From: Syntrophaceae bacterium
GTDB taxonomy: Bacteria; Desulfobacterota; Syntrophia; Syntrophales; Smithellaceae
NCBI GenBank assembly: GCA_016927935.1
Contig: JAFGLS010000190.1
Span: forward strand, 1-64,000
Direction of reading: 5' to 3'
DNA length: 64,000 nucleotides
Position numbers and translations under genes: made by a program. Below, in pieces: positions 1,016 through 62,110 of the stretch; positions within the stretch are counted from its first letter, which is position 1, and every line of letters starts with the position of its first letter. The notes under the pieces are model-generated. The model had not been told where the DNA came from and ran no database searches. It saw nothing but the letters and a program-made list of their open reading frames with translations.

Positions 1016-1107
1016 TGTGTCCCGACAAAATCGGGATTCGACTTAGAAATTTCAATACACCTATAGTACCCTTTAGGGTATTCGTTTTTGAAATTTGAGT
1101 CTCATAA
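1016..1107. repeat. Intergenic palindromic repeat, copy 1
   Basis: It holds CCCGACAAAATCGGG, then an arm AGAAATTTCAATACACC, the short palindrome ACCCTTTAGGGT, and an ending TTTTTGAAATTTGAGTCTCA. The same module recurs with small changes at 30755-30838, 37810-37869 and 56800-56866. It lies directly upstream of the transposase tail as read on the minus strand. Confidence 0.8.
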
Positions 1108-5712: not shown

Positions 5713-5930
5713 ATTGTGAGACTCAAATTTCAAAAACAATGTGCATTGAAATTTGTAAGTCGTAGTGAGTCCCAAATTTCAGAAACGCAGCGCACTGAAA
5801 TTTGTTTGACGAACTATCCAATCCCGAATTATCGGGATTGGGAACAATCCCGCCATAAGCGCAGGGTATGCCCTGCCCCTTTGGGCGGAATTAGGGTCCA
5901 GGGCTTGTCCTGGTGTTCATACCCGTGATT
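5713..5930. repeat. Intergenic palindromic repeat, copy 2
   Basis: Two tandem TGAGACTC/TGAGTCCC-headed modules (near 5717 and 5765), each with AAATTTCA...TGAAATTTG arms, are followed by the palindrome CCAATCCCGA-AT-TATCGGGATTGG (5818-5841). A stretch ending TTCATACCCGTGA follows (to about 5928). The same left and right ends occur at 11026-11137 and 42772-42880. It fills the gap between the divergent phosphoesterase and ligA genes. Confidence 0.85.
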
Positions 5931-8523: not shown

Positions 8524-8672
8524 TCCTTGATCCCACGTCGCTGCGCTCCTGGAATCAATTCCACTTGCGCTTCAAACTTTACCACCCTAGTTTTCCTGCG
8601 TCACTTCTTTCCTAGGATAATTCGACTAACGACTCCTATAGTCGTCGAGTCTCATTATCAGCGAGTGTCATT
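8524..8672. repeat. Intergenic palindromic repeat, copy 3
   Basis: Contains ATCCCACGTCGCTGCGCTCC, CACTTGCGCTTC, the self-complementary GACTCCTATAGTCGTC, GAGTCTCATTATC, and a final GCGAGTGTCATT. The last segment runs into the 3' end of the aminotransferase gene and supplies its last codons and stop. Confidence 0.75.
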
Positions 8673-9839
8673 GATCGTTTCTTCAAAACCCTTCATGGAA
8701 TTGATGATTGTAGCGTCATCGACACAATAGGCTATGCGGAAGTATCCGGGTCCACCGAAGCCGCTTCCGGGAACAACCAGAATATTTTTCTTTAGAAGCA
8801 TTTTGACAAATTTAACGTCATCGGGTATCGGGCTTTTTACAAAGAGATAAAAAGCGCCCTGTGGCTTGGCGAATTTATATCCGGCTTTGGTCAGTCCCTC
8901 ACAAAGTAAATCGCGCTTTCTCTGATATATTTTTACATCCACCGCTGCATCCTGTAATTTCACAATAATCCTTTGCATGAGCACCGGCGCGTTGACAAAA
9001 CCCAAAATCCTCGTGCATAAAATCAATCCACTGATTAAATCGTTTACCTCAGATATTTTAGGATTAACAGCGATATAGCCGACCCTTTCTCCCGGTAAAG
9101 ACAAGGTCTTGGAATAAGAATATGCTACTATACTGTTTTCATAAGCCTTTAAAACGCTGGGTACTTCAATATTATCATAAACTATTTCATTATATGGTTC
9201 ATCGGAAACGAGATAAATATTTTTATTAAACTCCTGGCTCTTTTTCCTTAATAGTGCAGCAAGCTCCATTATATTTTTTTTACTGTAAACTTTTCCCGTT
9301 GGATTATTAGGTGAATTGATGAGTATTACCTTTGTTCTTTTATTTATTGACTCATCTATTGCTCTTATATCGAGTGAGAAATCAGCTTGTGTTTGGACAA
9401 ATTTGACTACACCTCCGTAATTATCAATGTAAAAAGGATATTCGACAAAATAAGGCAGGGGAACTATCACTTCATCCTTTGGATCAAGCAGTGATTTGAA
9501 AATAACATTCAGTGCTCCGGCGGCGCCACAGGACACAATCACATGATCAGCTCTCAACTTAAGACCATAGGTCTTATTTACTTTATCGGCAATAGCCTTT
9601 CTCGTTTCGGCTAAACCGGCATTGGGCGTATAGCCGTGCTTCATGGAAATATTTTTGGCGGCAATATTAATCAGTTCTTTTTTAAATTTATCCGGCGGCT
9701 CCACATTGGGATTACCCAAGCTAAAGTCGTACACCTTATCGGCTCCGTACTTCTTCTTCATTAAAGCGCCTTCTTCAAACATCTTTCTAATCATGGAAGA
9801 TTGTGCAATAGACAATTTTATTTTTTGGGCAATGGTCAT
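8658..9839 (-). CDS. Class I/II PLP-dependent aminotransferase
   Basis: The 393-residue protein has the fold-type I aminotransferase motifs: FSLGNPNVEPP near residue 40, HGYTPNAGLAETR near 90, INSPNNPTGKVYS near 175, SDEPYNEIVYD near 212, and the PLP lysine in YSYSKTLSLPGERVGY near 245. It transfers amino groups between amino acids and 2-oxo acids; the substrate cannot be told. It is the last gene of the minus-strand run from coaBC. Its C-terminus (INDTR) and TGA stop are encoded by the end of a repeat copy. The native tail may therefore have been replaced, although nearly the full length is kept. Confidence 0.85.
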   Translation of the reverse strand: MTIAQKIKLSIAQSSMIRKMFEEGALMKKKYGADKVYDFSLGNPNVEPPDKFKKELINIAAKNISMKHGYTPNAGLAETRKAIADKVNKTYGLKLRADHVIVSCGAAGALNVIFKSLLDPKDEVIVPLPYFVEYPFYIDNYGGVVKFVQTQADFSLDIRAIDESINKRTKVILINSPNNPTGKVYSKKNIMELAALLRKKSQEFNKNIYLVSDEPYNEIVYDNIEVPSVLKAYENSIVAYSYSKTLSLPGERVGYIAVNPKISEVNDLISGLILCTRILGFVNAPVLMQRIIVKLQDAAVDVKIYQRKRDLLCEGLTKAGYKFAKPQGAFYLFVKSPIPDDVKFVKMLLKKNILVVPGSGFGGPGYFRIAYCVDDATIINSMKGFEETINDTR

Positions 9840-10235: not shown

Positions 10236-10997
10236 TTACTTATCAGTTAATTTTAAAAACGGTTTAAACAAATCAATCGGTATCGGGAATATCGTTGTGG
10301 AATTATTTTCCGAAGCAATCTGATTCAAAGTCTGCAAATAGCGCAACTGCAAAGACATCGGCTGTGTTTCCATAAGCTGCGCGGCTTCAATTAGTTTTTG
10401 AGCAGCCTGATATTCTCCTTCAGCATTGATTACCTTGGCCCTTCTTTCTCTTTCCGCCTCGGCCTGCTTGGCCATTGAACGTTTCATTTCTTCGGGTAAG
10501 TCAATATGCTTGACTTCCACCAGCGACACTTTAATTCCCCATGGTTCGGTACTGCGATCCAAAATTTCCTGCAAACGCATGTTAATCTTTTCGCGCTCGG
10601 AAAGAATTTCATCAAGTTCCATCTGTCCACAGACGCTTCTGAGCGTTGTCTGGGCAAGCTGTGAGGTGGCAAAAAGATAGTTTTCCACGTTCGTTACTGC
10701 TGAATTGGCATCCATCACCCGGAAATAAACAACAGCGCTGACTTTGATGGATACATTGTCTTTTGTAATAACATCCTGCGGGGGAACATCCATGGTAATT
10801 GTCCGCATGTCAATTTTCACCACCCTGTCAATAAGGGGAATAATAATAATCAATCCCGGACCCTTGACGTCCCTGATGCGGCCTAAACGGAAAACGACGG
10901 CTCTTTCGTACTCATTCATTATTTTGATTGCGGAAGCCAAGAATAAAATACTGGCCACTATAATAAATATTCCTGTTGTAGACAAAGTACCAAACAT
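10236..10997 (-). CDS. Slipin (SPFH/Band 7 membrane protein)
   Basis: The family start is one N-terminal transmembrane helix (about residues 8-24), followed by [12 protein letters not shown] and the SPFH domain with [14 protein letters not shown] and [15 protein letters not shown] charged helical segment rich in Ala/Glu ([20 protein letters not shown]) and a C-terminal LRYLQTL follow. Slipins form membrane scaffolds, often with an NfeD partner, whose gene lies directly upstream. I chose the ATG at 10997 because AAGGAGGA lies 7 bp before it. A longer reading frame to 11108 would only translate the repeat at 11026-11137. The protein is 253 residues long. Confidence 0.92.
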
Positions 10998-11025: not shown

Positions 11026-11137
11026 TTGTGAAACTCCAATTCCGAAAGTATAGCGCAACGGAATTGGTAAGTTGAACAATCCCGCATAGCGGAGGGAATA
11101 ATACTCAAAGCACGTTCTGGCGTATTATTCCCGTGAT
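11026..11137. repeat. Intergenic palindromic repeat, copy 4
   Basis: It begins TTGTGAAACTCCAATTCCG, has the inverted arm CGGAATTGG, and ends with ATTCCCGTGA. It shares ends with copies at 5713-5930 and 42772-42880. The right end contains the TAA stop (11125-11127) and the last codons of the NfeD gene. Confidence 0.75.
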
Positions 11138-14519: not shown

Positions 14520-14856
14520 ATAGTCCCACTTAGCTTAATTCTTCGCTGTGCTCGCGGGTCTCATTATCCCGCTCCGCTTCGCTGCGGGGATATCCCTATC
14601 CGCTTTCGCGGAAATGACAATTCAACTTCCGCCTCGATCTTCGCTTCGCTCGATCTTGGCGAGTTTCATTGATTCCCAATCCCGATAAATCGGGTTGGAT
14701 AATTCTACCAGCGCTTCGTTTTTCACTTCGTTCACACTTAGCGGGACTCACTACCACTTACGCTTCGAGTTTCACTTCGTTCACTCTTAGCGGGACTCAC
14801 TACCACTTGCGCTTCAAGCTGTGTTTCTCTTGCTCTCAGCGAGTGTCATTAATTTC
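14520..14856. repeat. Composite intergenic repeat block, copy 5
   Basis: The divergent gap between coaBC and the M23 gene (14379-14927) is mostly filled by GC-rich tandem modules: ATTATCCCGCTCCGCTTCGCT with GCGGGGATATC, the CCCAATCCCGATAAATCGGG palindrome near 14675, two close tandem copies ending CTTAGCGGGACTCACTACCA (near 14735 and 14790), and a last GCGAGTGTCATTA. Bases 14379-14519 are AT-rich with nothing recognised. No gene is supported in this stretch; the frames open here are translations of the repeat. Confidence 0.8.
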
Positions 14857-30639: not shown

Positions 30640-30838
30640 GTATCCCACAACGCTTCGCGTTGGGGATAGTTTCCAATCGCCACAAAGCTATTGGATAATT
30701 CGGCTTACAAAATTCAGTTCATTTTATTCCTGAATTTTGAGTCTCATTACGTCCAACAAATTTCAGTGCGCCTATAGTGACCCTATAGTACCCTTTAGGG
30801 TATTTAGGTTATTCGCTTCTGAAACTTGGGACTCACTA
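30640..30838. repeat. Intergenic palindromic repeat, copy 7
   Basis: Holds ATCCCACAACGCTTCGCGTT-type arms, ATTGGATAATTCGG, a module AAAATTCAG...CTGAATTTTGAGTCTCATTA, and a second one with CCCTTTAGGG that ends TTCTGAAACTTGGGACTCACTA. It occupies most of the gap between the reductase gene and the sigma-region-4 gene. Confidence 0.8.
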
Positions 30839-30918: not shown

Positions 30919-31203
30919 ATGATTAATATGTATAGATGCAAGAAAAAGAACACTCTCATCAGCGAAGTCTGTACCGATACAACCTGCGAATGGCGCTTGA
31001 AAAATGAGACTTTTTTGAACTGCACCTGGGTCGCTTGCAACTACGGGCCGTTTACTCTGGAAGAAGTTGGCGATATGATGGGCGTAACCCGGGAAAGAAT
31101 TCGCCAGATTGAAGCTAAAGCTCTCAAAAAACTCCAGCATAAAAAGAGACGGGATCAGCTTAAAGATTTTGCCGCACCTGGGAATGACTGGGATAGCTTA
31201 TAA
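30919..31203 (+). CDS. Sigma-70 region 4-like HTH protein with cysteine-rich N-terminus
   Basis: The 94-residue protein consists of an N-terminal ~40 residues with five cysteines ([28 protein letters not shown]) followed by the sigma region 4.2 helix-turn-helix: [20 protein letters not shown] and then [11 protein letters not shown]. Regions 1-3 of a sigma factor are absent, so it cannot act as a sigma factor alone. It could bind a -35-like site or act as an anti/co-factor, with the cysteines sensing metal or redox. An AAGGAG site lies 9 bp before the ATG. I know no experimental function for it. Confidence 0.78.
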
Positions 31204-31235
31204 TGAGCCTTGATTTTTCGAAACGTAGTGTACGG

Positions 31236-31291
31236 AAAATCTTAGAGCGAATTATCCCGCCACCTTCAGGTGGCAGGGATAAATTTCATTT
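31236..31291. repeat. Short intergenic palindromic repeat, copy 8
   Basis: GCGAATTATCCCGCCACC, TTCAGGTGGCAGGGATAAATTTC forms a hairpin (CCGCCACC/GGTGGCAGG) in the convergent gap between the sigma-like gene and the enoyl-CoA hydratase gene. The same element CCCGCCACCTTCAAGTGGCAGG occurs near 48022. Confidence 0.65.
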
Positions 31292-37435: not shown

Positions 37436-37657
37436 ATGCCCATTTATGAATTTAAATGTAAAAAATGCAAAAATATATTTGAACGTTTAATTTTTTCACC
37501 CACAGAAGAAGGAGTACTTTCCTGTCCCCAATGTGGAGCAAAACAAGCGGAGAAAGTAATGTCCGCACCTGCCAGAAGAAAGTCCAAAGGTTCATCTGAT
37601 TCAGCCGGTTCATCATGTTCAGCAACCTCCTGTCCGCCGGGATGTTCCTGTCATTAG
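37436..37657 (+). CDS. FmdB-family zinc-ribbon protein
   Basis: The 73-residue protein starts [16 protein letters not shown], followed by [12 protein letters not shown], giving a CxxC...CxxC zinc ribbon, and ends with a Ser/Cys-rich tail ([14 protein letters not shown]). It is the FmdB/putative regulatory protein family, of unknown function. AAGGA precedes the ATG. The TAG stop (37655-37657) coincides with the first bases of repeat copy 9 (TAGTGAGACTCC), so the repeat may act as its terminator. Confidence 0.9.
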
Positions 37658-37869
37658 TGAGACTCCAATTTTAGAAATGTGCAATCAAAACATTGTTTAC
37701 AACCCCGCTGCAAGAAGCAGGGTATCCAAACGAACTTGCGACCCAAGGGGCGGGGAATTAGACCCACATTTATCCCACTCGGTTTCGCCTCGGGGATAAT
37801 TCGATCATCAAATTTCAGTGCACCTATAGTGCCCTTTAGGGTATTCGTTTCTGAAATTTGGGTCTCATT
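37655..37869. repeat. Complete 215-bp intergenic repeat with inverted ends, copy 9
   Basis: The left end TAGTGAGACTCC and right end GGGTCTCATTA belong to 23-bp terminal inverted repeats (37655-37677 and 37847-37869) that match at 19 of 23 positions. The interior holds GGGGCGGGGAATTAGACC, a TTATCCCAC...CGGGGATAATTCG hairpin, and the AAATTTCAG...CTGAAATTT module. An ~80-bp interior block recurs nearly unchanged at about 62003-62082. Confidence 0.85.
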
Positions 37870-37984
37870 AAATATTTAAGAGAATAACGAAGAACCCTTT
37901 TTGAAGTGTCCGTGCCGTTAATGCGCTCCCGCTCAAAGTTCCTTCTCTAACTCTTTTGCTATTGCGAAAAAACACACAATACAT

Positions 37985-42771: not shown

Positions 42772-42880
42772 TCCAATTTAATGAGACTCGCTGACTATAG
42801 GAAGCGTTAGTCGAATTATTCCAAGGCGAAGCGACGTGGGATTAATACCTTAACTCCTGCTTTGGAGTTCATACCCGTGA
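42772..42880. repeat. Intergenic palindromic repeat, copy 10
   Basis: Contains AAAACTCCAATTTAATGAGACTC, GCTGACTATAGGAAGCGTTAG and the end GAGTTCATACCCGTGA (to 42880). The end stands one base before the nrdD stop codon (42882-42884). It lies between nrdD and nrdG, which are otherwise cotranscribed. Confidence 0.75.
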
Positions 42881-47933: not shown

Positions 47934-48375
47934 AGTCGTAGTGAGACTCTCTGAAAACGAGCGTAGCGAAATTTGAAGAGTAAGTCGAACTATCCAATAA
48001 CTAAAGGTTATTGGGAATTATCCCGCCACCTTCAAGTGGCAGGAAAGAACTTCGTCCCGATTCATCGCGGGACTTGCTCTCAGATTCTTATTCATTATCC
48101 CACTTCGCTTCGCTTCGGGGATAGTTTCCAATCCCGATTCATCGGGATTGGATAATTCGACCATCAAGTTTCAGTGCACTTTGTTTCTGAAACTTGGGTC
48201 TCATTACGTTCTACAAATTTCAATGCGCTATACTTTTGAATAAGGTGTCATTATCCCACGGCGCTAAGCGCCTTAAAATCCGTAATGTGCTCATTATCCC
48301 GCTACGCTTCGCTTCGGGGATAATTCCACTTGCGCTTCGAGCTTCGTTTCTCTCGCTCTCTGCGAGTGTCATTAG
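47934..48375. repeat. Composite intergenic repeat block, copy 11
   Basis: This is the longest block (about 440 bp). It begins GTAGTGAGACTCTCTG, then has CCAATAACTAAAGGTTATTGG, CCCGCCACCTTCAAGTGGCAGG, TCCCGATTCATCGCGGGA, CCAATCCCGATTCATCGGGATTGG (48128-48151), the AAGTTTCAG...CTGAAACTTGGGTCTCATTA module, two ATTATCCC...GGGGATAATTC hairpins, and a final GCGAGTGTCATTA. The last bases overlap the rubrerythrin stop codon (48372-48374). No gene lies in 47828-48371. Confidence 0.85.
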
Positions 48376-49437: not shown

Positions 49438-49581
49438 CCCCTCGCCTTTGGTGGGATAATCCCGCGTCGCTTCGCTCCTGGAAAACCTTAATGTGCTCAT
49501 TATCCCCATTCGCTTCGCTTCGGGGATAGTTCGTTCAACAAATTCCAGTACGCTACACTTCTGAAATTTGGAACTCACTAT
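49438..49581. repeat. Intergenic palindromic repeat, copy 12
   Basis: It holds CCTCGCCTTTGGTGGGATAATCCC, GCTCATTATCCCCATTCGCT with CTTCGGGGATAG, and AAATTCCAGTACGC...TCTGAAATTTGGAACTCACTA. The final CACTA overlaps the stop codon of mscL (49578-49580), read as TAGTGAG on the minus strand. Confidence 0.8.
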
Positions 49582-56639: not shown

Positions 56640-56866
56640 TTATAGCGCTTCTCTTTGTTTTCAGCGAGTGTCATTATCCCCCTTCGCTCCGCTTCAGGGA
56701 TATCACGGATATCTGCGATATCCTCCGCCTTTGGCGGGATAATTCAACTTACAAGTTTCAGTGCACTTAGTTTCTGAAACTTGAGTTTCATTAATTCGTC
56801 CATCCAATTTTAGTGCGCCTACAGTGACCTTTAGGTTATACGCTTCTAAAATTTGGGACTCATTAA
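56640..56866. repeat. Intergenic palindromic repeat, copy 13
   Basis: Contains AGCGAGTGTCATTATCCCCC, TATCACGGATATCTGCGATATCC, CCGCCTTTGGCGGGATAATTC, the module AAGTTTCAGTGCACTTAGTTTCTGAAACTTGAGTTTCATTA, and a final TTCTAAAATTTGGGACTCATTA. It fills most of the divergent gap 56557-56927 between DUF4301 and the transglycosylase gene. Confidence 0.8.
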
Positions 56867-61685: not shown

Positions 61686-61994
61686 AGTATCAACTACTTA
61701 CTTTTGATATTTAAACAACAGCTTAATCTAAAACCCTATTCTTAAGAAGGCGAATCAATTAAAGAATCTGTATAAATAATCTGAATGATTTTGTTATATT
61801 ATACCATATCCCTTAATAAATAAAAATAACAAACATTAATATCAATATGATTTTAATAAATAATTCCCGATGAGTTGACAAAGAACTCAAAGAAGATATA
61901 AAAATAAATCGTTAATCGTGTATTTAATGCAATAATAACAGAGGCCTTTTTAAAAAGACCGGACTTTATAATTTCTTTTTCTGAAAAATGAACA

Positions 61995-62110
61995 ACCCCG
62001 CCCCAAGGGGCGGGGAATTAGACCAACATTTATCCCACTTGGCTTCGCCTCGGGGATAATTCGACCATCAAATTTCAGTGCACTCCGTTTCTGAAATTTG
62101 GGTCTCATTA
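61995..62110. repeat. Intergenic palindromic repeat, copy 14
   Basis: CCCCGCCCCAAGGGGCGGGG, then TTATCCCACTTGGCTTCGCC with TCGGGGATAATTCGACC, and AAATTTCAGTGCACTCCG...TTTCTGAAATTTGGGTCTCATTA (to 62110). An ~80-bp part is nearly identical to 37743-37820. It ends 6 bp before the start codon of the next gene. The AT-rich stretch 61686-61990 has no recognised gene. Confidence 0.85.

Follow-up and report, generated by a model that had tools for sequence, protein, structure and literature searches.

A modular family of short, mobile hairpin repeats in the Smithella clade of the Syntrophales

The hairpin repeats described here, found in a window of 64,000 nucleotides (the whole stretch of DNA analysed), are a modular family of the Smithella clade (Syntrophales), and their mobility is shown by filled and empty sites in sister species. 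It is probable, at roughly 70 %, that they represent a non-autonomous mobile family of short non-coding hairpin units, perhaps moving as single strands by a Y1-type mechanism; the Y1 step taken by itself is a tentative proposal, with the odds somewhat against it. No description of this hairpin family was found in the literature searched, which took in few subscription journals.

An earlier note on this DNA had described a complete 215-bp repeat. A copy is indeed located at 37655-37870, the length given being one base short. The match of its 23-bp ends at 19 positions was borne out, the right arm being 37848-37870, and the four modules listed in the note are all present. The copy is not one complete element, however, but a composite of an older remnant and a newer three-hairpin element, with the following parts:

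37436-37657 (adjoining gene): fmdB-like zinc-ribbon gene, its stop codon supplied by the TAG of the hairpin remnant
37655-37695, minus strand: older hairpin remnant (inverted C unit), its terminal TAG being the stop codon of the fmdB-like gene
37697-37870, plus strand: newer three-hairpin type-1 element, module A + hairpin B + hairpin C, an order that recurs in other copies
37697-37771, plus strand: module A, ACAACCCCGCTGC..GCAGGG..CCCAAGGGGCGGGGAATTAGACCC, two GC-rich hairpins, from a comparison of copies
37770-37802, plus strand: hairpin B, TTATCCC..TTTCGCC..GGGGATAATTC
37803-37870, plus strand: hairpin C, the core unit (covariance model R1; 50.1 bits, covariation), with a 20-nt insert in its loop
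37824-37843, plus strand: mini-hairpin CTATAGTGCCCTTTAGGGTA inside the loop of hairpin C, its core expected 0.00 times in shuffles

The proposed 23-bp inverted ends turned out to be the end of one hairpin unit met twice, in opposite orientations. A genuine terminal inverted repeat is absent from the elements: CACGGGTATG at the left end does not agree with GTGAAACTCC, the sequence read inwards from the right end. At the end of the fmdB-like gene, units with other stem sequences were found in genomes G008 and G009, and no unit in G001, G004 and G014. Other repeats were noticed as well. The adk-fmdB spacer of G007 and G004 holds a different palindromic repeat of ~150 bp, GTTCAAAAATGTTCAGATGCAAGGCGCGCAAAAACCG.. 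(L210 about 10680-10850; L213 near 9170-9350), and L212 10751-10876 holds another, GGATAACGCGGCGGCAAGAAGGAGGCTCC..GACGACGCAGCC, at a site that is without this repeat in G001 and G007.

The core unit of 48 nt reads GACY-NNC-AAATTTCAN - loop - NTGAAATTTG-RGTC-TCATTA; its 14 outer pairs fall into two segments, and the terminal loop of 12 nt contains an inner 2-bp stem. In an alignment of 58 distinct rows, the stem was paired in 94.9 % of cells versus 80.0 % after shuffling, compensating double changes occurred at 14 of the 16 stem pairs, and the covariation score was 0.424 versus 0.141 (0 of 500 shuffles). These rows had been pre-filtered for a stem match, and the stem was therefore tested again on 129 units picked by their ends alone. 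At least 6 of the 10 Watson-Crick pairs are formed in 125 of these units and all 10 in 68, and the set contains 71 different stem sequences. G-T pairs and A-C mismatches are equally rare in these end-selected units (11 and 12, respectively). RNA-level selection should favour G-U pairs, and the equal numbers thus argue against each copy having an RNA function for the host; no sign of selection at the RNA level is seen on single copies. The stem pattern fits active sources with a perfect stem and inserted copies that decay, and the pattern would look no different if template switching corrected one arm to the other.

The strong stem covariation, together with the many unit ends located at stop codons, might also indicate regulatory RNA elements (3' UTR structures, terminators or RNA-stability elements) kept by selection at gene ends, and hairpins at gene ends are known as an mRNA-stability motif from REP/BIME. 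This explanation is very unlikely, in view of the lack of G-U preference, the occurrence of both orientations relative to genes, the gain and loss of units at orthologous sites between close species, and a stem that is not followed by a U-run. Moreover, Rfam models gave 0 matches in the window.

The window harbours many further copies. With at most 1 mismatch allowed, the motif TRRTGAGACYC is found at 24 places in the window versus 3.8 expected, about six times more often than in shuffles. The covariance model of the core hairpin gave 25 matches at E≤1, and a more conservative combined search gave ~20. The other copies characterized are:

61989-62110, plus strand: second type-1 element of the window
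5713-5927, minus strand: type-2 element, AAT before CACGGGTATGAA at one end and GTCTCAC before AAT at the other, with two C units at 5714-5810
42779-42879, minus strand: type-2 element with a shortened C unit
30702-30838, plus strand: tandem pair of C units, the second with a nested double mini-hairpin
31201-31248, minus strand: C-type unit with a GATTTTCCG/CGGAAAATC-like stem, its TAA being the stop codon of a sigma-70 region-4 gene (30919-31203)
47939-48374: mosaic of at least 4 C units (47939-47986 minus; 48159-48206, 48212-48253 and 48327-48374 plus) and B-type hairpins
56746-56865, plus strand: tandem pair of C units, a mini-hairpin lying in the loop of the second
14624-14851, plus strand: four tandem C-type units with GCTTCG-type stems
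1040-1107, plus strand: C unit and mini-hairpin
49533-49580, plus strand: C unit
11026-11073, minus strand: C unit, variant ending GGAGTTTCACAAT
8624-8657, plus strand: shortened C unit adjoining the stop codon of an aminotransferase gene

The sigma-70 region 4 gene (30919-31203, plus strand) encodes a stand-alone protein of 94 residues and is found at the same place in several species.

The repeats are not confined to the window, and their boundaries are common to copies elsewhere, so that the condition under which the earlier note would have been refuted does not apply. The host draft genome (3.38 Mb in 239 contigs) yielded 62 BLAST matches to the 215-bp sequence and at least 147 matches to the R1 model of the core 48-nt hairpin. 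Copy numbers are given here as model matches, which are lower bounds, and as estimates from density. Where stretches were searched in full, R1 matches number ~20 in the 64-kb window, ~16 in 160 kb from other parts of this genome and ~8 in 240 kb of G007; extrapolation gives an estimated ~550 copies in the window's genome and ~110 in G007. The hairpin family is present in 37 of 51 genomes of the bacterial family, with all seven genera represented, while 16 genomes from other families of Syntrophales gave a single match, in one genome. An exact search with the right end of the repeat retrieved at least 80 DNA stretches, nearly all from Smithella, Syntrophaceae or unnamed Deltaproteobacteria; the two lone Bacteroidota matches among the matches listed are consistent with chance. 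This distribution places the host in the Smithella clade of Syntrophales. Viral contigs, phages and plasmids were searched for the hairpin family without a match.

Two element types were distinguished. Type 1 consists of TGAACAACCCCGCC (module A), hairpin B (ATCCC..TTCG..GGGAT) and hairpin C, ending GGGTCTCATTAA. Type 2 starts with CACGGGTATGAACCCC and ends with GAGTTTCAC or GTCTCAC, with AAT on its flanks; in 15 of 21 type-2 copies AAT directly precedes CACGGG. The type-1 boundary is not fixed, because the left 3-mer varies, often being AAA, GAA or CAA and not TAA. Spacers of distant species are too diverged for exact junctions, and sister pairs at about 90-95 % identity were used instead. 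The cleanest pair consists of L300 (filled, GCAAATA-AAT-CACGGG...GTTTCAC-AAT-AAAACGC) and L269 (empty, GCAGATA-AAT-AAAACGC). Filled and empty pairs L273/L299 and L240/L262 likewise show AAT, L284/L294 shows AAT with one substitution, L247/L258 shows TAA and L281/L289 shows TTA. The TA target duplication that had been proposed is thus incorrect, since the clean cases show a 3-nt direct repeat (AAT or TAA/TTA). This flanking 3-mer may be a target duplication or the element's own end; both readings are possible because it hardly varies in sequence and keeps one orientation. In another locus, L276, the stretch 450-550 is coding-like and matches about 17 places in G009 at 77-92 %; it is probably a multi-copy mobile gene.

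The insertions at sites that are empty in the sister species are clean, and the inserted units measure 130-220 bp. Type-1 elements at unrelated sites in G000, G010, G013 and G015 are 90-98 % identical, versus about 74-79 % identity of coding DNA among the compared species carrying these elements. The repeats have therefore spread recently between species or stem from a very recent common source. This high cross-species identity supports the suggested small, non-autonomous family of mobile elements, as do the empty sites, which the earlier note had proposed to look for in related genomes and which were found in sister species (e.g. L300/L269).

An origin without transposition, with replication slippage, template switching and inter-copy recombination creating and altering the palindromes, is highly improbable. 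Template switching would yield perfect stems without strand bias (11 G-T versus 12 A-C), and copies do merge and shuffle (L274/L296), but clean 130-220-bp insertions at sister-empty sites, as well as an identical 20-nt sequence in unrelated loops, need copying from elsewhere. The elements might instead be of the MITE type, cross-mobilised by a DDE transposase with a 3-bp duplication (e.g. IS5-like), the hairpins being incidental. Their size and copy number fit MITEs, and the 3-nt direct repeats flanking clean insertions (AAT/TAA/TTA in several filled and empty pairs) would be explained. However, no terminal inverted repeats reaching about 10 bp were found, type-1 ends having AATGA alone in common, and a flanking 3-mer that is almost invariably the same, orientation included, is unlike a random duplication. 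This MITE-type explanation is considered unlikely.

In the data analysed, 113 copies of the mini-hairpin (~20 nt; core TGACCTTTAGGTTA or TGCCCTTTAGGGTA) were counted (81 in the A-T form, 31 in the C-G form and one exception). The mini-hairpin occupies loops of the B and C hairpins, and in 13 cases the loop of another mini-hairpin, with three levels of nesting in L066. Mini-hairpins were also found in the loops of several unrelated palindromic repeats, e.g. in L105 and L051. Comparison of different copies of hairpin B, which do not represent an orthologous empty site, shows an uninserted loop GGC-TTCGCC and a filled loop GGC-CTATAGTGACCTTTAGGTTA-TTCGCC with no base duplicated. It is conceivable, though on balance doubtful, that the mini-hairpin (e.g. 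CTATAGTGACCTTTAGGTTA) is a mobile unit that enters the exposed loops of any palindrome, its own included, without target duplication, and that the mosaics are built by repeated insertion into loops and junctions.

That all copies are intergenic, as had been claimed, is broadly right, with the qualification that the start of many copies coincides exactly with a stop codon and that a few copies prolong the reading frame upstream of them. The raw peak at stop codons is striking: of 160 outer right ends, 24 begin exactly at a TAA or TAG that terminates an upstream frame 100 codons or more in length. At the left, the ends of some type-1 elements likewise provide the stop codon, or lengthen the frame by about 20 codons. 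With a TAA/TAG target the default expectation is 12 % stop codons, versus 24 of 84 (29 %) observed, a 2.4-fold excess with P about 3e-5, a value that is too optimistic as some sites are orthologous. The excess beyond the TAA/TAG target is suggestive only, because orthologous sites form part of the count. Special targeting of stop codons was rejected, the TAA/TAG target alone giving the 12 % and leaving only the excess of about 2.4-fold. Insertions of mycobacterial MIRUs overlap stop codons as the Smithella units do, but MIRUs are not known to be hairpin mosaics.

In the mechanism proposed, a folded single strand would spread by a copy or a cut-and-paste process, with hairpins near each end, a short fixed target and loops as targets. 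An HUH/Y1-type enzyme acting in trans would be the most likely mover; this route is suggested because enzymes of this class depend on hairpins close to the ends and on a short, fixed target. Y1 enzymes are not known to make a target duplication, and the 3-nt repeat would speak against them if it is a true duplication. New units would join by insertion into AT-rich junctions and exposed loops, and inserted copies would then decay neutrally. The overlap with stop codons would result mostly from the TAA-like target and from selection against hits inside genes. ISDra2 acts on single strands and inserts 3' of TTGAT (PMC2806898).

A mobilising gene was looked for and none was found: only two of the 20 Y1/RAYT regions (60 kb) carry any unit (4 units). 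No R1 matches lie beside the IS200 genes in L172-L176, and the IS605-type elements examined show only a loose likeness of GC-rich hairpins to the units. G007, which is 98 % complete, harbours at least 97 units and gave no Y1 match; the enzyme could have been lost from this genome. G011 and G012 also have units and no Y1 match, while G020 has four Y1 genes and no units. RAYT/IS200 was rejected as carrier, as the presence of Y1 does not track copy number and the flanks of Y1 genes are mostly without units. An IS200-type gene region in G009 (L126, L127) shares 86 % identity with a region of this type in G027, whose genome belongs to another family.

Movement of the repeats by RAYT transposases, as a REP/BIME family, is quite unlikely. 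REP/BIMEs resemble the Smithella family in their short palindromes, their tandem and inverted groupings and their mostly extragenic location, and differ from it in tags, stem and loop sizes and RAYT association (PMC3733652). REP/BIMEs carry an unpaired GTAG or CGTC tag at one end, and in the GTAG type the RAYT gene is flanked by the repeats; REP/BIME units measure 20-40 bp, and CGTC stems have 8-9 bp with loops of 4-5 nt (PMC3733652). The mosaics of small palindromes in tandem and inverted arrangement agree with such a family, and RAYT/Y1 genes are common in the clade. One RAYT gene, in L166, is bordered on either side by C-type units that share one orientation; it also has its own, different 29-nt inverted repeat AAGGGGGTCAAGTCTTTGCTTGGCTCTTG at 1361-1389 and 2409-2437. 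However, RAYTs in general are not flanked by units (20 Y1/RAYT regions), the GTAG tag is absent, and the CGTC-like position is CGAC in 55 of 58 aligned units (about 95 %) and paired with GTC. Furthermore, the 48-nt unit falls outside the 20-40 nt range. "BIME-like", as the family had been called, thus holds as an analogy only, GTAG/CGTC tags and a transposase association having been tested for and not found.

The systems that appear nearest in behaviour are the yeast mitochondrial GC clusters and the PATE and SMR elements of Haloquadratum. The GC clusters (GC42; PMC4478555) and the hairpin-forming elements of sponges and fungi (PMC2800124) are likewise short hairpins with short direct repeats at insertion, AG or ACT in their case; their units also merge and shuffle, pass between species and have no known enzyme (PMC4478555, PMC2800124). 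These elements are organellar (PMC4478555, PMC2800124), whereas the Smithella family is bacterial and has several unit types. Unlike GC clusters, it reaches at least hundreds of copies in a 3.4-Mb genome and shows compensating stem changes and recursive loop-in-loop nesting. PATEs similarly have no coding capacity, no inverted ends and palindromes near both termini, an arrangement also found at type-2 ends (PMC3119063). However, the palindromes of PATEs have matches in IS605-type elements of their own genome, while the Smithella units show no such match among the elements examined, and PATEs make no duplication, while Smithella elements have the 3-nt AAT on both sides, as a duplication or as their own end (PMC3119063). 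SMR-As insert inside PATE palindromes and their mobilisation is unexplained, which recalls the units described here, but they measure ~110 bp and have inverted ends, in contrast to the Smithella elements (PMC3119063).

The Smithella family is a bacterial counterpart of the mitochondrial mobile hairpins, with enough copies and close species to derive from sequence alone where and how often hairpins insert. If the proposal for the mini-hairpin is true, few mobile DNA units known would be smaller, and its targets would be single-stranded loops. The loop-in-loop nesting offers a testable case for transposition into single-stranded DNA. In this clade of hard-to-culture syntrophic bacteria, the hairpin repeats occupy many gene ends.
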